Positions 1-33,979 of a stretch of 64,000 bases of DNA are shown here, piece after piece. A program made the translations under genes and the position numbers. The stretch lies in contig BCJU01000001.1 of assembly GCA_001600355.1 (NCBI GenBank), positions 1,385,178 to 1,449,177 of the forward strand, read 5' to 3'. The stretch's first letter is position 1, and each line of letters starts with the position of its first letter. This DNA is from Meira nashicola. Its lineage: Eukaryota > Basidiomycota > Exobasidiomycetes > Exobasidiales > Brachybasidiaceae. A model generated the notes under the pieces. That model saw only the letters and a list, made by a program, of their open reading frames with translations, did no database searches and was not told where the DNA came from.

Positions 1-1053
1 GACCTTTTGCATTCTTGATCACTTCAAATCGATCTTTGTCCATAGTAGAAGCATCGACGATTACTACGCTCGCATCTTTTAGAATTGCCACTGCTCCGTG
101 CCAAGGTGTAATAAAATTAGGGTTTGTAGAAGGAGGGAAAAGGTCGAAAGTGATTTTATCCAAATTGTTCGATTCATGAATGGATAATCTAATACTATCC
201 GGACTTGTTTTGGCAATCAAAGCAGCATATGCCTAAAATAAAAAATCAATCATAGTAAGTATACTGTTTTATTCAACAATGTGGTATAGAAAACTTACCT
301 TTCCTCGCTTTATCATTGCTTTTTGTACATTCTCTTTATTTTGATCATTATAACCTGTAAGAACGTTGTCATAATGTTTCTTTGTTGCATTTATGTTTTC
401 ATTTTCGTAAAATTGATTTGATGAATATTCTGTTTCAAGTATTTGACGAAGCTCTTGATTTTGGTTAAAGTATTCTTGTTGCGAATTGGTAAAAGTGTCA
501 TCATTCTTTCGTAATCCTATTGGACGTATAAATCTTAAATGTTTTAGGCCAAGATCTTTTGCCATTTCTCTTAAAGCATGACCATACTCAAAAGCCTCCA
601 TTTCATCAATTTGTAATAAATCTAAGAGAAAGTGAATGAATAAGTAAAAAATTAGCAAGTGAGATCTATAAATAACTATCCACCCTACTCACCGCCATAA
701 ACTGAAGCATCGGAAACGATTGTAACTGTTGCTCCCGGTTGATATATTTCTTGAATAGAATCTGCAAAAACATTTAAAGTTTGCAAAGCAATTTCTTCAG
801 ATTTATCGGGTAAAGAACTTAAAGTAGAACGTGAACCATTTGCGCGAATTGGTGCTTTGAAAGGGAAAGCAGGTAAAATGAAATCGATTGGCCGTTCTTG
901 ATGGATATAATCTTCAAGTTTTGATTGTAGTACTTGCTTTTGTTGTTCGAATTGATCGGTTATATGGCTTGAACGGAAACGATAATCACCGATCAAGCCA
1001 ACAATCTTTTTAGCCAAAGAAACATTTGGCGATATATTCTTTATTGAAGGCAT
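1..1053 (-). CDS. Isocyanide synthase, DIT1/PvcA family, copy 1 (3' end cut by window edge)
   Basis: Members of this family convert an amino acid alpha-amino group to an isocyanide (PvcA, fungal ICS) or act in dityrosine synthesis (Dit1). Three exons fit: 693-1053, 299-621 and 1-232, with GT-AG introns in phases 1 and 0, giving 305 residues before the edge. Visible family landmarks are FPFKAP near residue 66, the stretch SDASVYGDLLQIDE across the first intron, and RLSIHESNN followed by TPWHG in the last exon. These align by eye with FPFKSPN, SDGPCYNDLLGV, RLSIHASNN and TPWH of the intact paralogue at 10213-11853. Copy 1 deviates at two conserved places: FPFKAP is followed by Ile rather than Asn, and SDA replaces SDG, so substrate or activity may differ. 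The start ATG lies about 75 bp below a TATA-like box at 1125-1132. The C-terminal part is outside the window. Confidence 0.86.
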
Positions 1054-1204
1054 TATGAAAAGCTGAGAGTTTACAATATAAAAGGCTAAGTCGTAAGAAT
1101 GTAGATTTTACAAGAAATGGCCACTATTTATATCCCATACTATTTTGTAATCGAGCTACATTTTAGTATGTTTGGCGTTCATATGAAATCATTCACTCGC
1201 TTAA

Positions 1205-1215
1205 TCCGCGCATAT
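1205..1215 (-). promoter_or_regulatory. Shared promoter element ATATGCGCGGA, copy 1
   Basis: Read toward the synthase gene this 11-mer is identical to 9905-9915 upstream of the second synthase, in the same orientation relative to its gene. One-base variants (ATATACGCGGA) lie before the halogenase-like gene and the kinase. The role as a binding site is inferred from recurrence. Confidence 0.45.
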
Positions 1216-1284
1216 AAAATATCCTATCAGTGAATTGCTTTAGCTCCTTTTTTTGAAAATACAAACCAATTACGGATCTAATCA

Positions 1285-1293
1285 CGGACTCCG
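1285..1293. promoter_or_regulatory. CGG-N3-CCG palindrome, candidate Zn2Cys6 site
   Basis: The sequence is CGGACTCCG, an inverted CGG pair with 3-nt spacer, about 230 bp before the ATG of synthase copy 1. Inverted CGG triplets are a classic target of Zn2Cys6 dimers. The same layout occurs at 10071-10079 before synthase copy 2. Confidence 0.45.
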
Positions 1294-1560
1294 ACGGATT
1301 CCTTTTTTTTATCTTTAGCGTTGGAAAAGAGAGCAATAAAAATTGTGATATGTCTATTTCACACTTTTTAAACGAGCAAGCAAACAAGAAAAAAATAAGA
1401 AATTAAGAGACCCATGGAGTCTGCTCAATGTAAATCTCGATCAATAGATAGACAAAATTAGAATCTTATCATCAACACACAAATAGCAATAGTGAAGAAA
1501 AGTATAAATTTCAAATTATATAATTCGACAAAATAACTTTACATTACGCAGAAAGGTTAA

Positions 1561-3108
1561 TTAAGCTTGCACTTTTTCTTCTTTCTGTTCATTATTCTGT
1601 TGATGATCGAATCTATGATCACGAACGAAAAAGATGACAATGAAAAATGCTATTGCCGCAAAAGCGATGCCTAACCAATATGCTCCCCTATAAGCCATTA
1701 TTGTATTGGTGCCTTCAGCATTGTTGACGTGCGTTTCAACAGTTGAAGCAATTCCTAAGCCGATACTGATAGAATATTGAACCACAGTTGAGATAAATGA
1801 TCCTGCAACGCCTTGCTCTTCAGGCAAAACTGAATTTGAAATAATGATTCCAGAAGATGCGAAAGAAAGATCTGGTCCTCCAACGACGAATAAACATGCT
1901 GGGAAGATGAAAGCCCAATAAACGTTTGAATAATTTGCAAAGCTCATCAAAAGATTTCCTATAAAGAAAGAAAACATTGAAACCCCAAAGATATATTGAG
2001 CTGGAACTTTTGGTATAAATATTCCGACAGAAGCAGTTGCCACTAGACCTCCGATTACTAAAGGAACCATTTGTGCAACTGCAGTTAAAGGTAAAGCTTT
2101 ATGAATGAAAAGGATGAACACAGTTGTATAATAAAGAAAGATTCCAAAAGACATCCAACCGAAAGACATTGCAACGACAACTGGAGTAAAACCTTTTCGT
2201 TTCCACAAATTGTTTGGCAAAACGGGAGCCTTTACGTAAGATTGCGAAAATGCAAAAAGAGTGATAAAAATCATTCCTACGATCAATAATGCATACGTGT
2301 ATGGTTCTTGCCAACCGACTACAGAAGCTTGATTCCATGCGAAAGAAAAAAGTATTAAACCTGAAACACCGAGAAACGATCCTAAATAATCAAAATGTTT
2401 GAATTGTAAACCTGGAATTGGAGATCCCACTGAATGAGGAACGACAAAGTATGCGACCACAAATAAAAACAAACAGCCGATTGCCCAGAACCAGAAACCC
2501 CAACGCCAAGTAACTTTTTCAGCAAATATTGCTCCGATAAAGCCACCAAAGATATAACCTGAAGGTGCACAAAAGCCTAAGAAGGCAAAAGCAATATTCT
2601 TCTTTGTCGAAAAAGGTGGAAAAGCACGTGCTAAAAGAGCAAATGAATTTGGAACTAAAGCACCATTTCCAATTCCAGTCATAGCACGAGCAATATCAAA
2701 TAAGATCACATTATGTGAAAATCCACTAATCAAAGACCAAATTGCCATCCAAATCCAACCGAATAAAAAAACGTATTTATGACCTAAATGATCTCCTAAC
2801 CTTCCACCGATTAAAACGAAAACGCCTCCGCAGAGTGAATATGCTGCTAAAAACCAGGATAATTCTCCATTACTTGTTGCTCCGAGAGATTGACCGATTT
2901 GAACAATAGAATAAGCAGTATTGCCTAAACCGCCAACGGAAAATAATTGAGAAAGACCAACAATCAAAATAAAAAGAAATTCTTGTAAAGTTGAAGAAAA
3001 ATGTTGTATTTCAGAATTGTTTGGCTGTTCTTCTTCTGTTCCATTTTTGTTCTTCTCCGAGGAAATTTTACCCTCTTCTACGATAGAAGGCGCAACTGTG
3101 GATGTCAT
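1561..3108 (-). CDS. MFS transporter, DHA drug:H+ antiporter type (cluster exporter candidate)
   Basis: A 515-residue intron-free membrane protein with long hydrophobic segments through most of its length and hydrophilic ends. After the second predicted helix it carries GGRLGDHLGHK, the MFS motif A (G-x3-D-x2-G-x-[RK]). RAMTGIGNGALVPNS in helix 4 and WRWGFWFW fit fungal DHA2 proteins of the Atr1/multidrug group. It starts at MTSTVAPS and ends just before the upstream region of the partial isocyanide synthase. It is divergent from the Zn2Cys6 regulator at 3840, and the shared intergenic region holds one copy of the recurrent GGCACT-N8-ACGGAGTTTC element. Exporting the cluster product is the likely job from context; the sequence cannot show the substrate. 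Confidence 0.85.
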   Translation of the reverse strand: MTSTVAPSIVEEGKISSEKNKNGTEEEQPNNSEIQHFSSTLQEFLFILIVGLSQLFSVGGLGNTAYSIVQIGQSLGATSNGELSWFLAAYSLCGGVFVLIGGRLGDHLGHKYVFLFGWIWMAIWSLISGFSHNVILFDIARAMTGIGNGALVPNSFALLARAFPPFSTKKNIAFAFLGFCAPSGYIFGGFIGAIFAEKVTWRWGFWFWAIGCLFLFVVAYFVVPHSVGSPIPGLQFKHFDYLGSFLGVSGLILFSFAWNQASVVGWQEPYTYALLIVGMIFITLFAFSQSYVKAPVLPNNLWKRKGFTPVVVAMSFGWMSFGIFLYYTTVFILFIHKALPLTAVAQMVPLVIGGLVATASVGIFIPKVPAQYIFGVSMFSFFIGNLLMSFANYSNVYWAFIFPACLFVVGGPDLSFASSGIIISNSVLPEEQGVAGSFISTVVQYSISIGLGIASTVETHVNNAEGTNTIMAYRGAYWLGIAFAAIAFFIVIFFVRDHRFDHQQNNEQKEEKVQA

Positions 3109-3839
3109 CTTTTGCTTTGCCTTAGAATGAGAAAATTGAGAAGAAAAAGATAAAAAGATAAAGAGAAAAATGATAGAATAAAATCCAGTCTAGTATTCTA
3201 CATTTATAGTATTGCGGACTATTCTGTCGATATTCAAAGGTTCGTCAAACTCTTCCTTATCTCACAGCCAGGTGAAGTGCTGATCATGAGTTTTAACGCT
3301 ATCGGATTTTCATTCCATTTTCAAGGGAACATATTAATTAGGAATTAAGGCACTTTACCTCAACGGAGTTTCGGAGATTGACTTTCATTTCATCGAAGCG
3401 CGCCGGCGCTAATTAAAGTAAAAAAGAAAATGCATTAAGCCGACGCTAGTGAAATGAATCTTCTGACCTTTCTTAACCGCATGTAGGGAACTTTAATTAG
3501 CGTGCCTTTTTTTTAATGTACCAACACAGTTGAATGGTCCTTCTATTGTTGTTTGCCTATTCTTTGTACACGTTCTTTTACTCAATGGTTTAGTACCAAT
3601 CTGAATTAACAATACAATACGCCAACCGACATGCCTTTCAATTCTCTCTGCAGATTAATCTATAGGATATCTCCTTTACGGATAATCAATTTACATAATG
3701 TACCTTACCGTATATTCTTGAAGATGACGTGGGTGCTCTTAATTAGTCCCAATTCTCTCTAAAAGTATTTTTACTCATGTTTGTCACATATAAATGATCT
3801 ACCTTTCTTTTTGTTGGCAAAATACTTTCCCACCTAGAA
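3109..3839. promoter_or_regulatory. Divergent promoter between MFS exporter and Zn2Cys6 regulator
   Basis: About 730 bp with no coding potential. It contains the 24-bp shared element at 3349-3372, a GC-rich palindromic stretch around 3398-3412 (AGCGCGCCGGCGCT), and a TATAAAT at 3789-3795 about 45 bp before the regulator ATG. Both genes are probably controlled from here. Confidence 0.6.
3349..3372 (+). promoter_or_regulatory. Shared cluster element GGCACT-N8-ACGGAGTTTC, copy 1
   Basis: GGCACT, eight bases, then ACGGAGTTTC, continuing as CGG so that CGG-N5-CGG is formed. The same 6+8+10 layout, with both conserved blocks identical, occurs at 8823-8846 and in reverse at 15766-15789. All three copies lie in promoters of cluster genes. 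Confidence 0.6.
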
Positions 3840-6245
3840 ATGTCCGATACCAATGACAATTCAATTCAATTAGAACAAAGAAAAGATGAAGAGACGCAAA
3901 ACCAACTAGTAGAACAAGGAGATCAATCTTCTCAAATTTCAGTAAGGAAGCAAAAAGCAAAAAAGATATTTAGTTGTTATGCTTGTAGAAAAAGGAAGTT
4001 GAAATGTGATCGAATGGATCCTTGTGGAGCTTGCTCAGGAAGGGGAGAAAGCCATTTATGTACATGGCAAGAAGGTCAAAGACCAGAGTGAGTCAATTAC
4101 AGTAATTCATTTATCCTTATTAAACTTACAATAAGCTGACAATTCACCCTTGGTATTATATTATATCTTAGAAAAAGTCAAAACGAAAACATCTATCAAT
4201 TAACAAATTTGGTAATGAACCTAGTTGACGAAATGCGTGAATTGAGAAATATGAATTCAAAATTAATGGAAAATGTTGGTAAAGATAACAAAGAAAGAAG
4301 AAAACGCAAAACATCCGAAGAAAGTATTGATTCCGAAGCGGATTATATATCCGGTGAGTATTAACAAAGTTAAATCGGAGCTATAATGAATTTATGTGTC
4401 TAATCTTATTAATTTGTGTTTTTGCTATAAACAGATTCGTCTAAACGAAAATCTCTGGCTCCTACGAATATATTCGATTTACTGCCTGAACGACCTTTAT
4501 TGGCAAACCTAATGGTAGAGTTTGTGAGTTTATACTTGAGAATAAAGTTTATTTACAGGTTATTTACTTTATATAATACACTTTTTGATTCTTGCATCTA
4601 GATTCGAAGATGTTTACCGCTTTGCGTATTTATCAACTTGGAAGATATACTGTCAACTTTGGAAAAAGTAGAAAATATTCGATCCGGAATAGAAAAGAAA
4701 GATGGAAACAAGATTGGCTTTCCTATCATTCTTTTACAAATGAAATGTTCTTTATTATTGGCTTGCTGTAGTTTCATTCTTTTGAACTTGGATGCAGCAA
4801 CAGCTGATCGTTTATATTTGGAGGAAGATAAGATCGAATCAATGGCAAATGCAATGTGGTATAGATCGAAAGAACTCGTTAATCAATCATCTTTGGATAT
4901 AATTGAACTCCCTGAAGAAGTTTCTGGAATACGTTCAAGTGAAGCACGCACTAGAGTTGGCGACAAAATTATCAGTCATGATATCTTGGCGGCGGAAGCT
5001 GGACTTGCGGATCCTTCTCAAGCTAGAAATTTGCTTCTTTTAAGAATCGTTTCGATCAAATTAGTTCTCTTGAATGCGGCAAAGTCGTTCGTAACTCCAG
5101 ACGAATTTCTTAAATTTCACTTGGACACAATTGCATCTGCAGTAGATGCTTCGCTAGACACTCCATTATCGGATCAATTTATGCCATTAGAATTCGAAAG
5201 TTTAAGGGTTAGATTATTATCTTCTTTACGTTTATTGGATTGGACAGCACAAGGAACCTATCATCATGGAGGTTATTATTTACTCTCAGAAAGTCAAACG
5301 TTTCCAATTTCAGGATCGAATGTTTCAATAAACGTTGATGAAATGCAAATAGATTCGACGAAATTCGATTCTGTTTATCGTTTTGAAAGATTTAAACAGG
5401 CAAAGCATTACCTTAGACATGCTCTTTGTTTAGCACAGCTTTCTAGAAGGGTGAAACATTGTGTTGAAAGGGAAGGATTGGTTCCACCTGCAGAAGCTGC
5501 AGCCTTATGCGAAGAGATTGATAAAGTAGAAACACAATTTAGCTTTTATCAAATGGTCAGTCACACTAATGCCTTTGATGATAAATTTGAAGAAAAGTTA
5601 ATCAAATTGATCAAATTTGCTTCAACTTATGGTAAAAAGGAAGATCTTTCGCTCTTTGGTGGTCATTCGATCGGTGGTCAAAATAGTTTACGAATTCAAA
5701 GTGCTTATTTAAGCCTAGAACTAAGTTTGATCAGATTTAAATTATTTCGACATGAATTTTTTAATGTTTTACGAAGGCCGATTTCGTATGAAAGGCTACA
5801 AATAGTTTGCTTGGATGCTTGTATGGATGCTTGCATCATGGTTTTATCCCATTGTAGAAGTATCTGTCAAGATCAAAACTTGAATATAGAACGCAATTCT
5901 GATCTTCAATCAAGAAGAAATGTACCTAATACTCTACGTAGAGTTTTACAACCTGCATCTTCTGCAGCTCTGGTAGGTCAAGTTATCCTATTAACAGCAA
6001 GATCACCACAAGATATTTCGAAAGAAGAAAGTACAGTAAGGGGAGTAGAAGAAAATACAACTATTTCCTTACTCGCCAGACCGACAAAGATTGGTAATAA
6101 TAACGATACACAAGGAAGTTTTACTTTAGAAAAAATAAAAATTTTAAAATGGCACGTTGATGCTGTGTTGAAAGAGTTACAAATCTTGCAAGAAACGAGC
6201 AAATTGGCACAAACACGCTATAAGCTTCATATTCGTTGTATGTGA
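3840..6245 (+). CDS. Zn2Cys6 (fungal zinc cluster) transcription regulator, cluster-specific candidate
   Basis: Four exons join in frame: 3840-4087, 4172-4353, 4435-4523 and 4602-6245, giving 720 residues. The first exon carries the complete binuclear zinc cluster C-x2-C-x6-C-x5-C-x2-C-x8-C (C46, C49, C56, C62, C65, C74), with the basic run RKRKLK. Exon 2 follows with a heptad-like stretch (IYQLTNLVMNLVDEMRELR), the usual dimerisation coiled coil, then a basic RRKRK. The long last exon is helical and matches the size of a fungal regulatory middle region, though I recognise no specific subfamily. It is divergently transcribed from the MFS exporter and next to the halogenase-like gene, the position expected of a pathway regulator. 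Splice sites were chosen by frame continuity. Confidence 0.85.
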
Positions 6246-6636
6246 AATATTGTACTAAGGCATGTGTATACGTATAATTAATATTGCATAATTAATCATC
6301 AATTGGTATTGTGTACCCCAATGAACTATCGGGCATCATTATGGACCCCGACATTGAACGGGAATAGTATTTTAATAATTTTCAGAATTAGCTCTAAATG
6401 AATTGTTGTCCGCGTATATACGTTGAATTTAAAATTTAAGCTTATCAGTAAAACTCGCCTCATTGTTTGACAAGATCGAAAATAGAGGGTAGCACAAGAG
6501 TGTCGAACGACTGTAAATTTGATATGGAAAAAGTATGAAAGTATAAAAGGTCTATGTTTATCCTTCACCAGACGAATTACACTTTGACTTTTGAACTATC
6601 TAAAAGAACAAACTTTTCCTGTCTTTCTATTTTAAA
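6246..6636. promoter_or_regulatory. Promoter of the halogenase-like gene
   Basis: Non-coding. It holds an inverted CCCG-N8-CGGG at 6347-6362, the 13-mer TGTCCGCGTATAT at 6407-6419 (identical to 13345-13357), and a TATAAAA at 6542-6548 about 90 bp before the ATG. Confidence 0.55.
6407..6419 (-). promoter_or_regulatory. Shared promoter element ATATACGCGGA (extended 13-mer)
   Basis: TGTCCGCGTATAT on the plus strand. The 13 bases are identical to 13345-13357 before the kinase, and the core differs by one base from the element before both synthases. Confidence 0.4.
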
Positions 6637-8685
6637 ATGACAAACGCACAGCCTATTCCCAAACTTACCTTTACAGAAAGAGCTCAAGCAAATAACTTCA
6701 ACGATGCTCAAATCTTGAATTCAAACAATAAAGATGGTTCAAATATTGCACCTGAGTCAGATGTGGTAATTGCTGGCGGAGGTATACATGGTTTATTACA
6801 TGCAATTCATTCGGCCAAATATAATCCTCAAAAGCTAAATATTACGCTTATCGAAAAGAATTCAAAACCAGGATATAAGATTGGTGAAAGTACTTTACCT
6901 TTATTTTCTCTTTGGTGCAAAATGCACGGTTTAACAGCAGAATATATGCTCAGATTGTTTGGACTTAAAGATGGACTTTGTTTTTATTTTCTCGATCGTG
7001 AAAATCAAGGAAAATATTCAAACTTTTGTAGTAATGGTACTCCTGGTTTATTCTTAAGTGGCTTTCAAGTCGAAAGGCCGATTTGCGAACTTCTTTTAAC
7101 CCTGATGGCACAGCGTAGTGGAGTGAACGTCTTCCATGGTCGTCAAGTAGACTTTACCACAACAAAATTATCAGGCGGATTATATGGAAGTACTGTTGAT
7201 ATTGCAAAATCCAAATTTGATCAAGAACCAGCTACTTCCATTAAAACTTCATTTTTAGTAGACGGTACCGGTCGATTTCGTCAATTGGCTTCAAAGAATG
7301 CACCCGTTCACCGATTTGAAGGTTGGAATTATGATGCTTTTTGGGCTTACTTTACAGCACCAAAAGATGAAAGTACGATTCCGTTGAAGTTTTATGAAGG
7401 TGCGCATACGAATCATTTATGTTTTCCAGAAGGATGGGCATGGATAATTCGTTTACCTTCTTGGGAGGGAAGTCCCATTCCTAATTTGATGGATATGATT
7501 ACATATATATTAGATTGTGCCGAAGCAGGAATTCCAGGCGATCAAATTCCAAGTTCAGAAGAATTAGCAAAGATGTTTAATTTGAACTTTCGTTGGACGA
7601 CAAGTATTGGGTTTGCAATACGTAATGATGTTAAATATCCTGAAGATATGTCAAAGTATGGAACTAAAGAAGCAGAAAAGAAATTTAATTATTTCGTCGA
7701 AAAGTATGATATCATAAAGCAATTCATGAAAAATTTCGAGTTAATTGAAGATCTTTATGGACCAGGAACAACGTGGTTCATTCGTAAATCACTTACTTAT
7801 CAATCTCCAATCGTTTCAGGTCCTGGATGGCTAGCCATAGGAGACGCTGTCGGATTCACAAACCCATTACATTCACCTGGCATAACTGCATCAATGTCAA
7901 CAACGACATATTCTGCTGAATTGATTCATAAAGCAATCGATAATGTAAAGTGCATCAAAAGTTCAATCGAAGCAGAAAAAGTTATTCGAACTACTTTTGA
8001 ACCATATGATCGATTTGCTAAAAGTTTAATTCCAGCTTTGAATCAAATGAATAAATTCAATTACGTTTGTTTCCGTGATCCAAGGCTTGGTCCTCAAGTT
8101 TCATGTTTATGGCAATTCTTTGCAGGTATTGGAATTCCAGGTTGGCAATTAATTCGTCAAGATTATAATCTTTCTTTTAAAACATACGTTGATCATTCTA
8201 TCAATTGGGCATGGGGTTCAATGGTACCGCAATATGATGCAGTAGCGAAAAAAGCTATTGAATTGATCGCTCCAATTCCGTTAGAAGAAAAAGTTCCTGA
8301 TCAAATCGTTATTCAATTAATCGAATTTTCGAATAAAATAAAAGTTGAAGCAGTTCAATCAAATACGTTTAATTTCCGTTGGGATGGCCTTTTACGTTAT
8401 TATGACTTATTTTTAAATTATGATGAAGAAAAGTTTGCACAAAAAGATACGTTTGCAAGACAATGTGATAGTTGTGGTTCATGGGTACATTGTAGGCAAG
8501 ATTGGAGAAAATGTTATTCTTGCGGTCATTTACGCACTGAAGCTCAAGCATCTATCACATGGAATCCGCCTTTAGCTGTTGATGAAGTTAAAGCTTTAGT
8601 ACGTGCTTCCGATGCAAAGCCAGCTGCAAAAAGTATGAAAACCTTTCAGACAGACAGATTAGTCAGTATTCCTGTATTTAATTAA
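6637..8685 (+). CDS. Flavin-dependent halogenase-like oxidoreductase with C-terminal zinc ribbon
   Basis: A 682-residue intron-free protein. The N-terminal FAD-binding fold shows GGGIHG (residues 47-52), then KIGESTLP (81-88), a hallmark of the tryptophan/phenol halogenase family, and FGLKDG with Lys111 in the place where these enzymes keep their catalytic lysine. GDAVGFTNPLHSPG (about 402-415) is the second flavin motif in its halogenase form. The halogenase WxWxIP signature is only partly kept: W267-A-W269-I-I-R-L-P, with the proline shifted. The protein could therefore halogenate or act as a halogenase-derived monooxygenase. Beyond the usual length there is an extension with C610-x2-C613 and C626-x2-C629, resembling a small zinc ribbon, with a fifth cysteine at 619. 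It lies between the regulator and the GST in the isocyanide synthase cluster, suggesting a tailoring role. Confidence 0.78.
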   Translation: MTNAQPIPKLTFTERAQANNFNDAQILNSNNKDGSNIAPESDVVIAGGGIHGLLHAIHSAKYNPQKLNITLIEKNSKPGYKIGESTLPLFSLWCKMHGLTAEYMLRLFGLKDGLCFYFLDRENQGKYSNFCSNGTPGLFLSGFQVERPICELLLTLMAQRSGVNVFHGRQVDFTTTKLSGGLYGSTVDIAKSKFDQEPATSIKTSFLVDGTGRFRQLASKNAPVHRFEGWNYDAFWAYFTAPKDESTIPLKFYEGAHTNHLCFPEGWAWIIRLPSWEGSPIPNLMDMITYILDCAEAGIPGDQIPSSEELAKMFNLNFRWTTSIGFAIRNDVKYPEDMSKYGTKEAEKKFNYFVEKYDIIKQFMKNFELIEDLYGPGTTWFIRKSLTYQSPIVSGPGWLAIGDAVGFTNPLHSPGITASMSTTTYSAELIHKAIDNVKCIKSSIEAEKVIRTTFEPYDRFAKSLIPALNQMNKFNYVCFRDPRLGPQVSCLWQFFAGIGIPGWQLIRQDYNLSFKTYVDHSINWAWGSMVPQYDAVAKKAIELIAPIPLEEKVPDQIVIQLIEFSNKIKVEAVQSNTFNFRWDGLLRYYDLFLNYDEEKFAQKDTFARQCDSCGSWVHCRQDWRKCYSCGHLRTEAQASITWNPPLAVDEVKALVRASDAKPAAKSMKTFQTDRLVSIPVFN

Positions 8686-9027
8686 CTTTTTCTTTTGATC
8701 ATATAAAATCATAGTGTGCTTTGCCTTTCGTCTTGTTTTATATGAAACGTGTATATCCATGGATTTTATTACGCCATTTCACAGAAAACTTTTAGCTTCT
8801 ATTCCATTTAGTGAACATGAAAGGCACTAAGCCTGTACGGAGTTTCACTTACTTTTCTCGGAGAATCGTAAGATATTCATCAAAGTATAGCTGAACATAA
8901 GAGCGAACGCAAGATTGATTTCTGCGTCACTACTGATAAATCATATAAATATAGCTATTCTCATTAATGTTCGATGATTATCCTCAAGCATTCTCTCTTT
9001 TTCAACAATTTGACCTTAAAATCACTT
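8686..9027. promoter_or_regulatory. Promoter of the GST gene
   Basis: Non-coding stretch holding the shared 24-bp element at 8823-8846 and a TATAAAT at 8944-8950, 78 bp before the GST ATG. Confidence 0.55.
8823..8846 (+). promoter_or_regulatory. Shared cluster element GGCACT-N8-ACGGAGTTTC, copy 2
   Basis: Both blocks are identical to the copies at 3349 and 15766; only the 8-bp spacer differs (AAGCCTGT). It lies about 180 bp upstream of the GST start. Confidence 0.6.
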
Positions 9028-9793
9028 ATGTCCCAATCACAATTCACCTTATACACCCATGCCGGTCCAGGACCAAATCCGGTGAAAGTCGCTATTCTTT
9101 TAGAGCATTTAGGTTTAAGTTATGATGTCATCCCTCTCAGCTTTGGCGAAGGTAAGGGCACTGTCAAAGATCCAAGCTTTGTCGACAAAGTCAATCCAAA
9201 CGGCCGTGTTCCAGGTCTGATCGATCATGAGAACAATGATTTCACAGTTTTTGAAAGTGGAGCAATTTTACAATATTTGGCCGAAAAAGTGAGTGGAAAA
9301 GAAAAAAATTGTTTTTGAAATTTGTGATTGGAAGAGGAATCAAAAAGTTGATTCATTATTTTTTTAGTATGACAAAAAAGGCTTAACCTATGGAAGCACC
9401 ATCGAAGAAAGATCTGAAGTAAACCAATGGCTCTCCTGGCAAATTTCCGGTTTAGGTCCTTATCAAGGTCAATTGATTTGGTTTTTAGCATTTCATGAAA
9501 GTACACATGGTGAAAAGCCAAACGAAAGTGTTATTAAACGTTATCAAACAGAAGTGGAACGTCTTCGAATTGTTTTGGACAATCATTTACAAAAAACAAA
9601 GAATGGGTTTGTGGCTTTAGATCGTTTAACGATTGTTGATTTTGCAATCTTACCTTGGTTAAAAATTGCTGCATTAGCAGGACCTGCTCTTAAGCCTTAC
9701 AGCGAATATAGCGCTCTTGGCCAATACATCGAAAAACTTGATAAATTGGCTGAAGTTCAAAAAGCTTATGCAAAAGCCGTTCCTCCTCAATAA
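9028..9793 (+). CDS. Glutathione S-transferase, Ure2p-like
   Basis: Two exons, 9028-9288 and 9368-9793, join in phase 0 to give 228 residues. An in-frame upstream ATG at 8974 exists, but [18 protein letters not shown] is the better start because it begins directly with the first beta strand. The N-terminal thioredoxin fold shows [31 protein letters not shown] with the cis-proline, and [13 protein letters not shown], the Glu-Ser pair that holds glutathione. The second exon is the helical C-terminal domain ([14 protein letters not shown]). This combination is typical of Ure2p-like fungal GSTs. In fungal clusters such enzymes add glutathione to electrophilic intermediates or detoxify. The promoter carries the recurrent cluster element, so co-regulation with exporter and DJ-1 protein is likely. 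Confidence 0.88.
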
Positions 9794-9904
9794 ATTATAA
9801 TCGGACTTTAGTAAAATTATATATAACAAAGTCTAATAGTTTTCATAAGCATCATAAGTCAGTAAACAACTTAATTATTCTTTTCTCCAATCCTTTGTCA
9901 TGCC

Positions 9905-9915
9905 ATATGCGCGGA
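9905..9915 (+). promoter_or_regulatory. Shared promoter element ATATGCGCGGA, copy 2
   Basis: Identical 11-mer, and same orientation relative to its gene, as 1205-1215 before synthase copy 1; about 300 bp upstream of the ATG. Confidence 0.45.
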
Positions 9916-10070
9916 AAATTCTTAAGCCTAAATTGCGTCCACGGAAACCATGGATAAGAAAGTCGGACTATGGATGCGTAAAAAATAGCCGACGGAGATA
10001 AATGGACAAATACATTTATTCAATCAATAAGTAAGTAAGCATATTATTAATGTAGCGAGTCGGATAAAAG

Positions 10071-10079
10071 CGGACGCCG
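10071..10079. promoter_or_regulatory. CGG-N3-CCG palindrome before synthase copy 2
   Basis: CGGACGCCG about 134 bp before the ATG, the same geometry as 1285-1293 before synthase copy 1. Candidate target for one of the two Zn2Cys6 regulators of the cluster. Confidence 0.45.
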
Positions 10080-10212
10080 CCAATACGAAATGCTAGGATG
10101 GGGTTTTCACTGAGTGAGGTTTCTAGGTGAATTTTTGCGTTATGAATATAAATGAAACTTATTAATTACATTTACTCGCAAGAAGATCTTCTATAAGCTT
10201 AGTACAAAATAA

Positions 10213-11853
10213 ATGACCATGAAAATGGTTTCTTCTCCAGCAGCAGAGGTAGAAAATCTCTTTACGAGAGCACTCACAATCGCCTCTAATCCATCGACCG
10301 AAATGATACAATCTATTTCCATCGAGTCATCTATCACATTCAAACCCTTAGAAAAGGTCGAAATGAACGATGAGCTCATTCATCAAATTGCTGAAATTAT
10401 TGCGTCATATCGTATCGTTGGACCAAATGATCAATACGAAGCCGTGATGAAGCCAAAAATGATTGATCTTATTCATGAGTTCATCGGTCAAGGAAAGCCA
10501 ATCAATATGGTCGTACCTGCTTTTCCATTTAAAAGTCCAAATCATCAAAATAAAGTGATAGGATCAGAAGCAGATGTAGGTGAAAGAATGACATTACAGC
10601 ATTTAAATTCTATTGGTCAAAGTGTTCAACAAATTTATCCACAAGGTGCCTTTATTACAATAATCAGTGATGGCCCATGCTATAATGATCTATTAGGAGT
10701 AAGTGATAAAGAAGTTTATTCATACGCCAGAAGTTTGGAAAATATTTGCGAACGTTTACGTTTGAAACATGTTCGATTTTCCAACATTTATACTTTATCC
10801 GGTAAAAAGAATCCAAGCACTTATCTTGAATATATGGAAACAATTGATTCAATTAGAGAAGAAATTTTTACAGATTTTCTGCCAAATGCATACAATTTTG
10901 ATCAAGATATCAAAACAAATCCAAATTCACTCTCAACTTATCGTGGATATTTGAAATTTTTAGAATCAGATTTAGCTATCTTTTGTAAAACAGAAGGAAT
11001 GAGCAAAACTGCTGCACGAAAACACCATTCAAAAGTGGCACGAAAGATGATTGAAAGAGGCAAAGCGTTTTCAGCTTTAGTGAAAAATAATTCACCTGAT
11101 CATATCCGTCTTTCGATCCATGCAAGCAATAATACGGATAAATTATCAATTTCACTTTTACCGCATGAACGATATAGTATCTTTCCCGTCACACCTTGGC
11201 ATAATACACCTTTCATTTCTCCGACGGAGACCGGTTTAAGCATTGGACGTAAACCGGATATGAATGACAAAATCGTTCCGTACAAATTATTTAAAGACGA
11301 AATAGGATTAACGTATTTACGGGCTGATGTATCAATTTTTACTCTATTTGTTGGTCAAAGTGAATTGGAAGAAGTGAAAAGCTTGATTGAACCAATATAT
11401 CCGTTTGGATTACGTGTTAAAGTACCACAAGCCATTGCAGTAAAAGACGTTCGATTTGACAATATTGAACAATTAGCAAAAATTCACTCTCCAATTATTT
11501 TTGAAGGATTAGCAGAAGATTCAACAGATTTAGTCGTTCACGCATTTACAAAATTAAACCAGACTGATTTATCACTCAGCTTTTTAGACGATTCAAATCA
11601 TTTTAACTCTACACTTGTTTCAATTTTTGTGCAAGTTTGCCCCGAACAAGACCCAAGCAACATGCAAAGAAGAAGAAGCAGTATTCCATCAAATTTATTT
11701 GACCTTGACCATGAATCTGTGCAAAAAGATATTGATGCTCGTTATTGTGTCACTCATAGCTGGAGAGCTGATTCGGCAGTAATTTCTCATCACTCTACCG
11801 CTTTACCTGTACATCATCCTACCAAAGTTCGTGTTCTAAAGGCCGATGTTTAA
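10213..11853 (+). CDS. Isocyanide synthase, DIT1/PvcA family, copy 2 (complete)
   Basis: A 546-residue intron-free protein. The pyoverdine/dityrosine-biosynthesis domain spans roughly residues 55-335: VPAFPFKSPNHQNKVIG (about 101-117), EADVGERMTLQHL, IYPQGAFITIISDGPCYND (about 141-159), then RLSIHASNN (299-307) and TPWHN (327-331). These are conserved landmarks of PvcA-type isocyanide synthases and yeast Dit1. Residues 350-546 form a second, unassigned region; fungal synthases are often fused to a TauD-like dioxygenase, but I see no clear metal-binding motif here, and Dit1 is similarly long. The first ATG is used; a second in-frame ATG lies four codons later. Together with copy 1, the exporter, the GST and the DJ-1 protein it defines the cluster. 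The amino-acid substrate (Tyr, Trp, Val, Leu are known in the family) cannot be read from the sequence. Confidence 0.88.
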   Translation: MTMKMVSSPAAEVENLFTRALTIASNPSTEMIQSISIESSITFKPLEKVEMNDELIHQIAEIIASYRIVGPNDQYEAVMKPKMIDLIHEFIGQGKPINMVVPAFPFKSPNHQNKVIGSEADVGERMTLQHLNSIGQSVQQIYPQGAFITIISDGPCYNDLLGVSDKEVYSYARSLENICERLRLKHVRFSNIYTLSGKKNPSTYLEYMETIDSIREEIFTDFLPNAYNFDQDIKTNPNSLSTYRGYLKFLESDLAIFCKTEGMSKTAARKHHSKVARKMIERGKAFSALVKNNSPDHIRLSIHASNNTDKLSISLLPHERYSIFPVTPWHNTPFISPTETGLSIGRKPDMNDKIVPYKLFKDEIGLTYLRADVSIFTLFVGQSELEEVKSLIEPIYPFGLRVKVPQAIAVKDVRFDNIEQLAKIHSPIIFEGLAEDSTDLVVHAFTKLNQTDLSLSFLDDSNHFNSTLVSIFVQVCPEQDPSNMQRRRSSIPSNLFDLDHESVQKDIDARYCVTHSWRADSAVISHHSTALPVHHPTKVRVLKADV

Positions 11854-11967
11854 TTAGACTTCATTTTATACTGCTCTTTATTTTTTTTTTCACATAATAT
11901 ATACAATTTCATCATTTGAATGGAAAATGTTTAGGACAATTTATAGATTGTGCAACGAAGATTTGGG

Positions 11968-13203
11968 TTATGAAATCATTTTCTTAGCGTTCGTGTCTTG
12001 ACTGACAATAGTTGCATCAGAATCAAAATCCCAAGGAATACATTGAAAGCTTTTGGTTAAATTATTGGAAGGAAGAGTGAATGTAAATTTTTCATTTCTA
12101 TTTTTTGAACAGCCTATTATCAATTTCTTCAAGACTGATTTAGATTTTGCTTTATTGAAAAACGAATGCTTTAATAAACGAGCAGCAGTTGGCCTCTTAT
12201 TTGGATCTTTTTGCAAACAAGATTCGATCATATCCACAAAAGATTGTGAATACTTATTTGGACCATTAAAACGATGCAAAGTTGGATAATTGCCTTTCAA
12301 AATTTCCATCATTGCTTTAACAGGATTTTTATCGCTGTTTGGGTGTTTTCCTGTTGCTAATTCTATAGAAGTGATAGCAAAGCTCCAAATATCGGCTATT
12401 TTATTATGAATGCTATGAGTCAGTAAAGCAAATTCATTTTAATCGAAATATATACTTTCTCACCTTTTTGATCATATCTTTGATCCTCCAATACCTCTGG
12501 CGCCATCCAAAAAGGCTATTTTAGAGAATTTGATTAGTTAATAAAGACTAAAGATAAAGTCTAAAAAAGAAAGAAAAAAAAAACTCACAGTTCCTACGAA
12601 GCTTCTTCGTCTTTTTAATTTGCTATTGTCTTGCTCTTTGACGTTGATCTTTTCTCCTTCTTCTAGAATTGTTCCAACTCCAAAATCTGCCAATAAAACA
12701 GTACCATCTTCCTCAATGAGTAAATTAGAAGCTTTTATATCACGATGAAGCCATCCGGAATTATGCAAATAGTGTAAGCCTTGGAGTGCTTGTTTTAAAA
12801 TTGTTGCAATTGCAATTTCTTCTATTCCTTCAGGGTAAGAATTCTGTAAAATATCCAAAGCACTACCGGCTTTCATCAATTTAGATACCAAGTGTAATTT
12901 TGAACCTTCTATCCAACAATCAAGAATTGGAAGAACGTTTTGATGTTTTGATAATGACATTATATGTGTTTCCCTTCTGATATTTGCAATATTTAGTTCA
13001 AATTTATCCAGTTCAATCACTTTTACTGCGCATGTTGATCGAATTGGAGTATTACAGTTTGTTGCCTCAAATACAACGGATGAAGAACCATGACCAATTA
13101 TTTTTTTCAATTTATAATCTTCCCTTTTACATGAATATATCGGCTTTTCATTCACGATCGAATCAGAATGACTTGCTAAACGTAAATTTGAGATCTTCAA
13201 CAT
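11968..13203 (-). CDS. Ste20-group Ser/Thr protein kinase, OSR1/SPAK-like
   Basis: Three exons, 12589-13203, 12464-12515 and 11968-12395, join in frame to 364 residues. Visible kinase elements in order are the glycine loop GHGSSSVVFEA, CAVKVIELDKF with the ATP lysine, LHRDIKASNLL, ADFGVG, the activation segment RRRSFVGT-PFWMAPEV, and ADIWSFAITSIELATG. The last exon completes the C-lobe (KDPNKRPTAARLLKHSFF). PFWMAPEV and ADIWSFAIT are typical of the OSR1/SPAK branch of Ste20 kinases, but there is little room for their C-terminal CCT domain. The intron boundary before ADIW was chosen because it alone restores the frame and the motif. The gene is convergent with synthase copy 2, only about 115 bp apart. 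It may be an unrelated resident of the region or a cluster-associated signalling gene. Confidence 0.83.
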
Positions 13204-14237
13204 TCTTTACAGCCTTTTTCAAACGATTTTATTTTACAATCGTATTTATGTATAATTCTTGATATCAATCAGGCAAATATCATAATCATAAACAATTCCG
13301 AATTCAATCCGACGCAAAGTTTGTATCAAAAGCAATCGATCAAATGTCCGCGTATATCCATCTTTTGGTTATATACGCGCGCATTGAGTGCAGTGCAGTG
13401 CAGGAAAACCATATCTCAGCTTGTCGGCTCCTACACTTTCACCTCGAGGTAATAAATAAGGGAGATCAAGCTAATTTTTGGTATACAAAACGCCCAATTT
13501 TCACAACATAAAAAACACACCTTAGAATCCAAAGCGATCAAAAAAGTGCGCAGCGCCTTTACAAACCTTGTCAACTTTTAAACTTTCCTCCTTGATATGT
13601 TTGAATAGAAGCTTTCACAAGAAATAATCACTCGGCGCACGCCACACTTCGCTTTTCATTTATTTAGCCTTTGTTTTATCAATGCATCTTCTCCGCTCAA
13701 CAATTGTTTGAGCCCGTGCTAACGCGTGTATTATCTTTGGCCGTCGGCAATTTTCATCGAGGAACAAACATTAATTACGCTAAAAATAAATTAAATTGAA
13801 AATGGCAAAATGGCGTCAAATACATTCTTTATCCGCAAGTGCTTGCTGCACGTAGATGCGACTTTTACTGTTTATGCATAAGAATTAACTTCTTTCTCGA
13901 ATTTTGCCCACGAATGGATCAAAAGTCAGAAGAAGAAGTGCAAGGAACGTGAATAGGTATGTTAAAAAACGTGCTATGAACACTGTCTATGTTCCTGACT
14001 GAAATGAAGACATGCGGGAATGTATGGTCTAAAAGAACTTGCCTGGATAGCAATTTATAGGGCTTTTAGTTCTCGGTTTATAGAGAGAAACCTTGAAATT
14101 CGGAAAATTGTATGAAAGGCCAATTTGTATAGTGTCAAAAAGGATTATTTAATTCTTTATGAATTCTTATCTTCTTATCCTCACGTTTGAAGAATATCGT
14201 TTGATCGAATTAACATCAACAATCACTTCGTAGCAAT
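13204..14237. promoter_or_regulatory. About 1 kb divergent intergenic region, kinase / unknown gene
   Basis: No coding potential seen. It contains TGTCCGCGTATAT at 13345-13357, whose CGCGTATAT pairs with ATATACGCG at 13371-13379 as a perfect 9-bp inverted repeat with a 13-base gap, and a short GTGCA repeat at about 13386-13402. The rest is AT-rich with no recognisable feature. Confidence 0.45.
13345..13379. repeat. Inverted repeat CGCGTATAT / ATATACGCG overlapping the shared 13-mer
   Basis: Arms 13349-13357 and 13371-13379 are exact reverse complements. The left arm is part of the 13-mer shared with the halogenase-like gene promoter at 6407-6419. It could be a dimeric regulator site or a small hairpin. 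Confidence 0.4.
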
Positions 14238-15359
14238 ATGCAAAGATATCCTTTTTCGAATAAGCAAGAAACAATTTATCGTCAATCTACGTCTTCATCT
14301 GCGAAAGCTCTATCAGAAATATCTTATGAAGGTATATATTCCAATTGTGGTCGAGGTCGTGGATTTGATGAAGAAATTGTTGAATGGCTTGAGATAGCAA
14401 GAAGAAAGTCAACCGGAGATTTGAGTTTGTTTCAACGAAAGCAAGAAGAAGAACCAAGTAGATATAGTTTAAATAGAAAAACAACAAGCACATACTTTTC
14501 ATCTTTACTTTTTAATTCTAATAGTAGGCCAGCAACAGAAGAAATAGAGGTTTTACAAGAACCAAAAACGAATAAAAATCAAAATAATCAAAGGAACCCG
14601 TTTTCTTATTATAACAACTTTTCAGCACCTAATAAACATTTTCCTGCCGATTCAGATACAGATGCTATCAGTAGAAGATCTGATTCTGTATCGGATCTGT
14701 ATAATCAATTTAATCTTCTTATTGCAAATGGGATAGAGAAGACAAATCCATCTGTTGGTCAAGAATCTTATGGCAGTACAACAATGACAAGCACTCTACA
14801 TACACCTTCAATTTTTCCTTTAGAAGTACCTAGGACAACAAGCTCCAGTGATAACTCTATAAATTCCTATTCGATCCTCGTTCCGCAACCGACAAGTGAA
14901 TCAATTTTAACAAAAGAACCACATACAAACACTATCAAAATGAAAAATCCATTAGAATTTTCTTTAGCACAAAATGAAAATGTAAACCCTGGATTGACAA
15001 TGGAAAATGATGGAAAAGTGGCTGCTGATTCGTTGTCAAACTTTATCTTTGAGAAAAGTGAAGATTTGATGAAATGGCTAGAGGAACAACCTTATACGGC
15101 AAACAGCGAGGAACAATCATGTCAAAATTCAAAAGGAACTAATGAAGTTCAACAATCGGAAGATAAGGAACTAAATAAATTTAAGCTCAACTCGCTTCCG
15201 ATCAATAAACGTAGAAAGACTGAATCTGATTCTCATTCTCATTCTAGCCTTCATTCTCCTCCAACGATCACGTCATTACCCAATTACGGCCAAACAGGAC
15301 AATCTTTGTGGGACGATTGCCTATTGTTCGAATTAGACCCTTCTGAATTTACACTTTGA
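14238..15359 (+). CDS. Unrecognised Ser/Asn-rich protein inside the cluster
   Basis: A 373-residue intron-free frame of unknown function. It is polar and low in hydrophobic segments, rich in Ser, Asn, Thr, Gln and Glu, with no signal peptide or membrane segment. The more ordered parts are an acidic N-terminal stretch (GFDEEIVEWLEIARRK), a helix-like piece (EDLMKWLEEQPY) and an aromatic/acidic C-terminus (LWDDCLLFELDPSEFTL). NKRRKTESDSHSHS could be a nuclear localisation signal. Acidic and aromatic patches in a disordered chain would suit a transcriptional co-activator, but this is a guess. It sits between the kinase and the DJ-1 gene and may be lineage-specific. The continuous frame over 1.1 kb supports a real gene. 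Confidence 0.6.
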   Translation: MQRYPFSNKQETIYRQSTSSSAKALSEISYEGIYSNCGRGRGFDEEIVEWLEIARRKSTGDLSLFQRKQEEEPSRYSLNRKTTSTYFSSLLFNSNSRPATEEIEVLQEPKTNKNQNNQRNPFSYYNNFSAPNKHFPADSDTDAISRRSDSVSDLYNQFNLLIANGIEKTNPSVGQESYGSTTMTSTLHTPSIFPLEVPRTTSSSDNSINSYSILVPQPTSESILTKEPHTNTIKMKNPLEFSLAQNENVNPGLTMENDGKVAADSLSNFIFEKSEDLMKWLEEQPYTANSEEQSCQNSKGTNEVQQSEDKELNKFKLNSLPINKRRKTESDSHSHSSLHSPPTITSLPNYGQTGQSLWDDCLLFELDPSEFTL

Positions 15360-15923
15360 TATCCTTCTTTCGCCGGCCAAGATTAAATATCATTGGCCGT
15401 ACTGCAAATATTCTCCGCCTTTTCTTTTTCTCTTATTTAGCCTAAATTAAAATCCATTTATTTAGCCCGAATTGAATTGTAAATGTGTACGTATGGTACT
15501 CTGTTACGATAAATTACACAACAACGTGTTTAAAAGATCGGAAAATTGACTGACGGTTGTTTCTCCTTCTTTGATGTCCTCAATCAACAAAAGTCGGGGT
15601 GTTAATTAATTAAACGTTTACTGACTAAATTTGTATTACTATAATACTTCCTTGTGGTTTTAGCGCGGAAACTATTCTATTCTATGTCCGATCTTCCATG
15701 GTAACCGTTCTAAATGAAATACGCTAAAAATTAAACATGCATACGTTTAACACTGATAAAAGTCCGAAACTCCGTAGAGATGAAGTGCCGTCAGGTCAAG
15801 TAAGCTTATCGTACTGCACTTTTGTATAAAGAAAGTAAAAGGAACGAAATATATAAACATAGAGTAGAAGTCCATCTTTTTACTATATGTCTCCTTCTCA
15901 CAGTGTCTAATATTTATCCTAAA
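15360..15923. promoter_or_regulatory. Promoter of the DJ-1/PfpI gene
   Basis: Non-coding. It contains GCGCGGA at 15663-15669 (core of the synthase element), the shared 24-bp element in reverse at 15766-15789, and TATAAAC at 15852-15858, 66 bp before the preferred ATG. An open frame upstream of that ATG is probably leader. Confidence 0.5.
15766..15789 (-). promoter_or_regulatory. Shared cluster element GGCACT-N8-ACGGAGTTTC, copy 3
   Basis: On the minus strand the two blocks are identical to the copies at 3349 and 8823 with the same 8-bp gap (TCATCTCT), and continue as CGG. About 135 bp before the DJ-1 ATG. Confidence 0.6.
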
Positions 15924-16746
15924 ATGCCTTATGAACATAAGATTATAGCATTACTTTATAGCGATTATGAAGCTTTAGACGTTTTCGGACCAATAGGAGC
16001 AATCGTACCTAGAAGTGATTTTTATAAAGTTGAATTTGTCACTTTAAATTCAATTCAAAACGAAAAAGGAGTTGAATCATCAATCAAAAATGGAATTGCA
16101 ACGCCTACAAGCAAAACAATCGATGAAGTAAATTCTTCAAAAGAAGAATTTGATACACTTTTCATTCCTGGTGGTTTTGGTTTTTTACCTCTAATTTGGG
16201 ATCCTTTTCTTTTGAAAAAGATTGCAATTTTAGTCGATCAAGCTCCAAATGTGTTTACGGTATGTACAGGATCTTTATTATTAGCAGCCACCGGAAAATT
16301 GGAAGGTCGTAAAGCGACAACAAATAAACGCCTTTTTGATGATCAAACTCCCCGTCGTAAGTAGCAGAAGAAGAGTTTTTTAAATAGAAACTCTCTTGTA
16401 AAGATTATGCAACCTCTTACCCTTTTTTCTCCCATTTATAGATCCTGCGGTCAAATGGCAAAAAAAAGCACGTTGGGTTGAAGATGGTAAATTCCTTACC
16501 TCTTCTGGTGTAACAGCAGGGATTGATGCTGGATTTGCATTCATTTCTAGAACTTATATTGCTCCAGAAGATCGTACATCTGAAAAACAAAAGATTGATA
16601 AGACGGGTGATAAAACTTCAATTCCTGGTTATAATGCTAAAAAAGCTACAGGTCATGCTCATTTTGTCGCTTTCGGCTTAGAATACGCTTGGAATACCGA
16701 TGCAGGAGATGATAAATTTGTAGATCTTCCTGCTCAACGTGCTTAA
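15924..16746 (+). CDS. DJ-1/PfpI family protein, isonitrile hydratase-like
   Basis: Exons 15924-16356 and 16442-16746 join in phase 1 to 245 residues. MPYEHKIIALLY is taken as the start because it leads straight into the first strand; the frame is open 34 codons further upstream. The DJ-1/PfpI fold shows the early acidic residue (YEALDVFGP), FDTLFIPGGFG, and the nucleophile elbow VFTVCTGSLLLAATG with the catalytic cysteine, followed by GRKATTNK and SSGVTAGIDAGF. CTGS plus RATT-like and SGVTAGID segments are shared with bacterial isonitrile hydratase InhA, which hydrates isocyanides to N-formyl compounds, but also with other fungal members of unknown activity. In a cluster with two isocyanide synthases, detoxification of the product is an attractive role. 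The promoter carries the shared cluster element. Confidence 0.82.
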
Positions 16747-32655: not shown

Positions 32656-33040
32656 ACAAGTGTATAATAGTTTTTACTCCATCCTTTTTAAAATGATATA
32701 TCGTTCAGTAAATACTCTTGTACATGAGATGACTGCCTTATTGAAAAGTATCCTTAATTTAGCTTATTTCCTGTAGTTTGCAAGCTTGGAACATTTGAAA
32801 TTTTGTGATTGATCAAACGAAGGCAAAGTGTCAAATATTCTTTCTAAACGGCACGCTTACTTTACGCCTTTTCCGCTTTTACGGTGCCGCTTCCTTTTAG
32901 AACCACGATTGTTAAATAATTGCCTCTGTGCTGGCAATTGTTTCGACGGCTTAAAGCGGTATACATCTGAATACTCTTTTTATACTCCCTCCCTCCCTAT
33001 TATCATCTTCTTAATATTAATTCTTCTGAACAGTAGCAAG
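32656..33040. other. Intergenic region before BTB copy 2
   Basis: No gene supported. An open frame runs into BTB copy 2 from 32828, but its first part lacks similarity to the paralogues, so it is taken as leader. Confidence 0.4.
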
Positions 33041-33979
33041 ATGTCGGATTCCAATTCAAACAAAACATCTGATGATGGTATTGAAGATTCTATAGATTTA
33101 ATCGTCATACCTGTAAACGAGAAAAGATCTGATAAAGTAGATTTTACCATCGTTTACACTGACTCTAAAACAGATGAAAAGACATTTTACGGAGTTGAAA
33201 AACAATGTTTATGTGTTTGGTCAAAATTCTTTGCGGATTTATTCGAGCAAAGTCCTAATCAAGAAGGTGATAACGATTCCGAGAAAGATAATGATTCCAA
33301 AGGCACTATTGTACGCTCCGTTATAAAGAGAGAGAAGGAGGTCGAGATATTAAGTACCAATAAAGCTGTAATCCTCACCCTCTTACAACTTATGCATGGT
33401 ATAATTCCCACTACAGTTTGGACTATTGAGTAAGTTCGAGCTGATCTTAAGCGTTTTGAGTGATATTTATCCTGATTTTTTCTATTTATTATCATATTCT
33501 TCAGCCATTGTAGTGACGTTCTTGAAGCAGGAGTAAGATTCGAAATCGATCTTGCAATTTTTACTGCTTTAAGGCAATTTTATAAGTCAATCATTATGGA
33601 GACATTCTGCCTCGATAAAGTGATACCGATCAATTCACGCTACGGAAGAGGTATCGCTGTCAAGTTTATCAGCTTATGGATGCGAGGTGAAAATGGAGAT
33701 TTTGTCTTTCCTCCCGATGTTGCTCAAATGTACTTTTTGGTTAGCGCTGATATTCTTATTTCCTGCTATACCCGATGTGGTCTAGATATCGAGACAGCAA
33801 GTGCACTAGAATTTCTCGATTACGATTCTCATAAATATTTCACGTCTCAAGATATTTGTTTCTTTTTACTCTATATAAAAACGTTTGTCGAGGAAAATCG
33901 TTCTGGCAGAAAACGTTTACAAATAAAGACAGTACAAGAAATTCTAAAAAAAGAAAAGGAGGAGAGGAAGATCAAGTAA
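33041..33979 (+). CDS. BTB/POZ-domain protein, paralogue 2 of a tandem array
   Basis: Exons 33041-33429 and 33505-33979 join in phase 2 to 287 residues. Start MSDSNSNKTSDDG aligns with the MSD starts of copies 3 and 4. The BTB core begins at RSDKVDFTIVYTDSKTDEK, with GVEKQCLCVWSKFFADLFE as the usual hydrophobic Leu-x-x-x-S-x-F-F-x-x-x-F helix, ending in HGIIPTTVWTIE at the intron. The second exon holds a helical tail with FISLWMRGENGDFVF and FLDYDSHKYFTSQDICF. Fungal BTB proteins of this lone-domain type have no assigned function; BTB domains often dimerise or recruit Cullin-3. No zinc finger or Kelch repeat is present. It differs from copies 3 and 4 more than they do from each other. Confidence 0.78.

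Follow-up and report, generated by a model that had tools for sequence, protein, structure and literature searches.

A 64,000-nt stretch of contig BCJU01000001.1 of the fungus Meira nashicola (positions 1385178–1449177, hereafter the window; the genome comprises 17.88 Mb in 20 contigs) carries at its left end two isocyanide synthase (ICS) genes, ICS1 and ICS2, and a flavin-dependent halogenase gene, HAL. With a probability of about 0.6, these genes form part of a secondary-metabolite cluster of ~17.6 kb, running from ICS1 to a DJ-1/PfpI gene, that would make a ring-halogenated aromatic vinyl isonitrile. Specifically, ICS2 would build an isonitrile acid from the nitrogen of an aromatic amino acid and a carbon of ribulose-5-phosphate, as its family and predicted fold suggest, and the dioxygenase half of ICS1 would remove CO2 and desaturate to yield an aryl-vinyl isonitrile, as its Fe ligands and selectivity residues suggest. 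HAL would, judging from its family, chlorinate or brominate the ring, most likely an indole. A major facilitator superfamily (MFS) protein could export the product, a glutathione transferase (GST) and the DJ-1 protein (the latter possibly an isocyanide hydratase) could protect the cell, and a Zn2Cys6 regulator could work via one or both of two rare motifs observed in the promoters. A first-pass annotation of this DNA had already proposed a single cluster with two isocyanide synthases and halogenation, the last of which is now much better grounded, but its statement that the gene set lacks a described precedent does not hold for the two-synthase core.

Two possibly complementary isocyanide synthases

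The three central genes are:

1..1053, minus strand: ICS1, ICS domain fused to a TauD-type iron/2-oxoglutarate dioxygenase, 603 amino acids (aa), only the 5′ part within the window (PF05141, PF02668, gene model)
6637..8685, plus strand: HAL, MalA-family flavin-dependent halogenase, 682 aa, one exon (987 bits to 5wgr/5wgu)
10213..11853, plus strand: ICS2, isocyanide synthase with a decayed C-terminal dioxygenase remnant, 546 aa (PF05141, 277.4 bits)

Both DIT1/PvcA-type synthases of the first-pass annotation were recovered with PF05141, and no further PF05141 gene was found in the 17.88-Mb genome. Because ICS1 is cut by the window edge, its TauD domain (117.7 bits) had been invisible; extending the contig leftward, as had been suggested, completed the gene, which ends 896 bases outside the window, and revealed the dioxygenase. 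The spliced model (exons 1053–693, 621–299 and from 232 leftward) is 100% identical over 100% to a 603-aa database protein (P0121), which supports the splice sites; P0121 may come from this very genome or from one close to it.

The dioxygenase half of ICS1 keeps 59 of the 66 conserved dioxygenase columns and all Fe ligands (H420, D422, H585), and presents K426 and H520 at the positions of K107 and N188 in bacterial PIsnB. Vinyl-isonitrile enzymes carry Lys/Arg at the former and Asn/His at the latter position, and isocyanoacrylate enzymes Leu and Cys (PMC9467999; papers are cited here by PubMed Central (PMC) number and for the sections available to us), a rule that was derived from alignment and validated for an additional bacterial enzyme in a study that also made single mutants (PMC9467999). 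ICS1 combines the HxD...H triad with a Lys/Arg-type and an Asn/His-type residue in the PIsnB manner, and under this rule its K426 and H520 predict decarboxylative desaturation to a vinyl isonitrile. Across 18 ICS1-type database proteins the first position is Lys in 15, Arg in one and Leu in two, and the second is His in 17 and Tyr in one; 27 other fungal fusions have Lys (24), Arg, Glu or Phe (one each) at the first position and His throughout at the second.

In contrast, the tail of ICS2 retains 15 of the 66 columns and neither Fe-binding His, so that, judged by residues, the cluster holds one ICS gene with and one without a working-type dioxygenase domain. The identity of this tail as a decayed dioxygenase rests on profile comparison, since the structure model of ICS2 has low confidence beyond about residue 460; upstream, the predicted fold is of the PvcA/PIsnA isonitrile synthase type. 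Conversely, the ICS half of ICS1-type proteins diverges 1.67 times as much as their dioxygenase half (1.01 in other fusions), and eight of 42 near-invariant ICS positions are lost in all seven ICS1-type proteins compared. The synthases may thus be complementary duplicates, ICS2 without its dioxygenase and ICS1 with a fast-evolving ICS half stripped of conserved positions. They resemble bacterial PIsnA/PIsnB (rhabduscin) and PvcA/PvcB in their ICS fold and in a dioxygenase with vinyl-isonitrile-type residues, but differ in that the functions would be spread over two paralogues, each worn in the opposite half. Such a split of functions would offer a concrete reason for keeping two synthases.

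A MalA-family halogenase and its likely substrate

The flavoenzyme between the synthases, previously called halogenase-like, can now be assigned to the MalA family of flavin halogenases. It is 60% identical to MalA/MalA′ of Malbranchea aurantiaca (malbrancheamide; 5WGR), aligning over residues 6–663, and keeps the catalytic Lys (K111, Lys108 in MalA), the FAD motif GxGxxG (G47xG49xxG52) and all four zinc cysteines (C610, C613, C626, C629). Halogenation by HAL is therefore likely, in a setting that differs from that of MalA, as its partner genes are isocyanide synthases. The genome has one further PF04820 match, a weak one of 24 bits, and a plasmid search with HAL gave no match.

The ring to be halogenated might also derive from tyrosine, the product then being a halogenated hydroxyphenyl-vinyl isonitrile (a xanthocillin-type monomer or dimer) instead of an indole; this is a real possibility, although clearly the less probable one. 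The structural best match of the ICS2 model is PIsnA co-crystallised with L-tyrosine, ICS2 matches a single NCBIfam model, that for L-tyrosine isonitrile synthase (132.7 bits, far short of the cut-off of 600), and flavin halogenases act on phenols too (PMC9144378). However, HAL falls in the indole-acting MalA family and matches the phenol-acting RadH type at 39 bits, and none of the 15 proteins scanned around the cluster is a P450 that could dimerise such a product.

Recurrence and history of the gene set

In its architecture, the two-synthase core corresponds to icsA/icsB of the Aspergillus fumigatus 4G cluster (ICS4G; AFUA_4G01370, AFUA_4G01420), in which icsA is single-domain and icsB an ICS-dioxygenase, and for which no expression was seen in the conditions tested (PMC5974471). 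The likeness, two ICS genes per cluster of one kind each, is drawn from the published description of A. fumigatus IcsA and IcsB, and the letters A and B are swapped for some Penicillium database proteins (P0136, P0266). The 4G cluster probably belongs to GCF 1, a gene cluster family with two ICS enzymes that stem from an old duplication (PMC10153163). The M. nashicola cluster differs in its halogenase, a term absent from the main text of PMC5974471 and of PMC10153163, and in its probably basidiomycete host. In the open-licence PMC literature, covered mostly at title level, we found no report of an icsA/icsB product and no fungal cluster joining isocyanide synthases to a flavin halogenase; in the listed papers with both terms the matching passages treat the two apart, and the available part of a lichen genomics paper counts isocyanide synthase clusters with no halogenase mention. 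We class the cluster with the two-synthase kind, as a variant that bears a halogenase and is probably basidiomycete.

The host assignment agrees with the "basidiomycete-like" label given at first sight. Among solved structures, the acetyl-CoA synthetase scored best against 5ifi/5k85 (1005 bits; next 925) and the thymidylate synthase against 2aaz (494.5 bits; next 439.6), all of which we take to be Cryptococcus neoformans entries. Ribosomal protein L3 was uninformative, with a tie between 7olc (670.8 bits) and 8esq (670.7 bits), presumably from Chaetomium and S. pombe. Overall, the genome is likely from Basidiomycota.

Halogenases and synthases recur together in public proteins. We considered the best 120 of 191 halogenase matches and used 118 (excluding HAL's own entry and one without contig), calling a shared contig by equal lengths, not contig names. 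Among the 63 proteins in P0002–P0065, at least 13 share a contig with an ICS1-type (39 entries) or ICS2-type (50 entries) protein, and among the 55 in P0066–P0120 none lies on a contig with an ICS entry among the matches listed. ICS1-type/ICS2-type pairs sharing a contig number 11. Judging from these proteins, single metagenome contigs hold both synthases and a halogenase, and assemblies of Penicillium and of lichens a halogenase with one synthase. Locus tags bear out the linkage in Letrouitia (L6R41_006245/006246), Blastenia (Q9170_003126/003132), P. hordei (N7537_005895/005897) and P. malachiteum (N7493_001730/001735), and P. ucsense has two synthases by tag (PECH_003735/003740). One scan of bacterial contigs gave two ICS loci beside a halogenase and was used for no conclusion.

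HAL could instead be an unrelated neighbour acting on something else, the isocyanide pair making its own product. Two-synthase contigs without a halogenase entry among the matches listed do exist (e.g. A. clavatus contig 1035561), the best 120 of 191 halogenase matches name no Aspergillus, and the label "linked to ICS" switches 10 times on the halogenase tree. Yet the recurrent linkage, the position of HAL between both synthases and a promoter motif (M1, below) preceding HAL, ICS1 and ICS2 alike make this improbable. With the same 10 changes, the idea that ICS-linked halogenases form one clade is not cleanly borne out; many of the unlinked proteins lie on contigs too short to tell.

Quick trees (42 entries for ICS1, 53 for ICS, 42 for halogenases) placed ICS1 with ICS-dioxygenases of Aspergillus, Penicillium, Teloschistales, Parajaminaea and metagenomes (30 entries, support 100) and ICS2 with single-domain proteins (19 entries, support 100). 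A spore-wall dityrosine-type function is very improbable: PF05141 is shared with yeast Dit1, a proposed tyrosine isocyanide maker (PMC5974471), but in these trees, built without S. cerevisiae Dit1, ICS1 and ICS2 each group with matching two-synthase proteins. Moreover, a dit pair consists of Dit1 and the P450 Dit2, while the scanned proteins hold an ICS-dioxygenase and no P450, and no basidiomycete held a dit cluster in the available sections of PMC10153163. The partners thus speak against the spore-wall pair that the first-pass annotation had considered.

In the ICS1 and ICS trees, M. nashicola and Parajaminaea phylloscopi (Basidiomycota) lie outside the ascomycete/metagenome branch (support 96 and 94), and their synthases may form a single clade (AU p 0.45 for ICS1, 0.49 for ICS), leaving whole-cluster transfer between phyla unsupported for the synthases. 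In the halogenase tree, HAL stands among lichen, Penicillium and metagenome proteins and that of Parajaminaea with mushroom halogenases (support 85); one clade for the two was rejected (delta lnL 58.8, p 0.0013), in a quick tree with a long Parajaminaea branch. We read the synthase pair as old and the halogenase as added or exchanged separately. The Parajaminaea trio is known only from one 9.86-Mb contig, on which close clustering is unproven.

Promoter motifs and the extent of the cluster

The remaining features are:

1205..1215, plus strand: motif M1 TCCGCGCATAT, upstream of ICS1, 152 bases from its ATG
1561..3108, minus strand: MFS exporter, DHA2/EmrB-like, 515 aa (PF07690, 117.3 bits)
3364..3375, plus strand: motif M2 CGGAGTTTCGGA, in the divergent MFS/TF1 promoter
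3840..6245, plus strand: TF1, Zn2Cys6 regulator diverging from the MFS gene (exons 3840–4087, 4172–4353, 4435 onward)
6409..6419, plus strand: M1 TCCGCGTATAT, upstream of HAL
9028..9793, plus strand: Ure2p-type GST (exons 9028–9288, 9368–9793)
9905..9915, minus strand: M1 TCCGCGCATAT, upstream of ICS2
11968..13203, minus strand: protein kinase, 364 aa (gene model, PF00069)
13347..13357, plus strand: M1 TCCGCGTATAT, 144 bases from the kinase ATG and 881 bases from the 373-aa gene
14238..15359, plus strand: 373-aa protein, no Pfam or NCBIfam match
15763..15774, minus strand: M2 CGGAGTTTCGGA, upstream of DJ-1
15924..16746, plus strand: DJ-1/PfpI (ThiJ) protein (exons 15924–16356, 16442–16746)
16804..19221, minus strand: TF2, second Zn2Cys6 regulator, adjoining DJ-1 (PF00172, 26.5 bits)

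M1 (TCCGCGYATAT) precedes ICS1, HAL and ICS2 and is also present between the kinase and the 373-aa gene. It has 14 sites in the genome, these four falling within a span of 12.2 kb, where the ten others would predict 0.007; as the motif read backwards also has 14 sites, M1 is concentrated in the cluster and not enriched genome-wide. In 60 shuffles of eight promoter regions no 11-mer (with at least four G/C and at most one R/Y) was common to four, and control intergenic regions yielded one at four places, the low-complexity CCAYCACCATC. Genes near the ten other sites, judged from the beginnings of their open reading frames (ORFs), have no evident common theme. The genome has two copies of the exact M2 12-mer, one ahead of DJ-1 and the other in the divergent MFS/TF1 promoter, and a shorter match with two mismatches lies upstream of the GST gene at 8838; only the exact 12-mer is rare, since its core with up to two mismatches gives 7 matches in the window and 8.9 are expected by chance. 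Zn2Cys6 site spacings (CGG-N-CCG and the like) common to two or three promoters were few and without clear pattern. The motifs make the cluster span ICS1 to DJ-1, drawing in the DJ-1 gene and the kinase as a probable regulon member, and a Zn2Cys6 regulator may bind M1 and/or M2, which are candidate promoter elements for turning the cluster on. The halogenase-bearing relative would in addition provide a Cl/Br isotope handle for finding the product by mass spectrometry.

Several points weigh against this account of a halogenated vinyl isonitrile cluster. Of the close halogenase entries on 15–400 kb contigs, 8 of 29 are linked to ICS (Letrouitia, tag-only, uncounted). All four A. fumigatus ICS proteins, including IcsB, retain key residues (PMC5974471), and with 28 of the 42 near-invariant positions kept in all seven ICS1-type proteins, ICS1 need not have an inactive ICS half. 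MalA Glu494, which has a role in substrate binding (PMC9144378), aligns with Gly499 plus an insert in HAL; this weakens any transfer of substrate from MalA, and with the family residues kept but Glu494 replaced, HAL probably acts on something other than a malbrancheamide-like alkaloid. The DJ-1 protein is nearer to ThiJ 3mgk (105.7 bits) than to isocyanide hydratase InhA (53.2 bits). Finally, other 13-mers are also common to promoter pairs, and as M1 and M2 were both found by searching for shared words, their significance is post hoc; the motif evidence for shared control is strong with that reservation.

Hapalindole-type clusters of cyanobacteria have two isonitrile synthases, a dioxygenase and a halogenase of a different class, and lead to chlorinated indole isonitriles. 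A wider reading, which we regard as doubtful, would see here a fungal route to halogenated indolyl-vinyl isonitriles, functionally convergent with the cyanobacterial hapalindole starters, with an obligate synthase pair (ICS2 without dioxygenase, ICS1 without ICS chemistry and serving as scaffold), halogenases recruited more than once into the same two-synthase cluster across phyla, and a private two-motif promoter code capturing a duplicated kinase and DJ-1.

The accessory genes named in the first-pass annotation were all found. Of ICS clusters, ~60% include an MFS gene, 21.3% a zinc-finger regulator and 21.1% an isocyanide hydratase (PMC10153163). The MFS protein scored 100.5 bits against TIGR00711 (model cut-off 230.2). 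The Zn2Cys6 assignment of TF1 comes from a cysteine cluster in its translation, and its C-terminal ORF (4638–6245) has no Pfam match. The GST is closest to PcUre2p6 (155 bits) and PcUre2p4 (146 bits). DJ-1 ends exactly at the coordinate first given, carries a Cys in a VCTGS context and is possibly an isocyanide hydratase. A single chain unites ICS, TauD and DJ-1/PfpI domains in P0189 (936 aa) and P0190 (1022 aa), database proteins of A. fumigatus and Emarellia grisea, which links DJ-1 proteins to ICS function, although both may be gene-model fusions; fungal proteins P0224–P0227 join an ABC-transporter domain to PF05141. DJ-1 and the kinase have paralogues elsewhere in the genome (62% and 55% identity).

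From left to right, the order is ICS1, MFS, TF1, HAL, GST, ICS2, kinase, 373-aa gene, DJ-1, TF2 and an N-terminal glutamine amidase gene, the kinase and 373-aa genes thus sitting between ICS2 and DJ-1. Neither M1 nor M2 was found upstream of TF2, and its membership is uncertain. To the left of ICS1 lie a 265-aa ORF beside its 3′ end (L004 7797–8594, minus strand; no Pfam match) and genes for a WD40 protein, an amino-acid transporter and an enoyl-CoA hydratase. An Rfam scan gave nothing at the gathering threshold. A foreign island is unproven by composition, since the cluster genes, for all their low GC (34–36%), differ little or not at all in range from other AT-rich genes of the window and have ordinary GC3. 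Elsewhere in the window, ORFs 32828–33433 and 34305–35231 resemble, by eye over a similar stretch, copies of one BTB-like family. On another contig (C4, near 1780004; L029 1498–3231, minus strand), one frame reads as an apparent fusion of a histidine-phosphatase-like domain, recognised by eye, with a complete thymidylate synthase.

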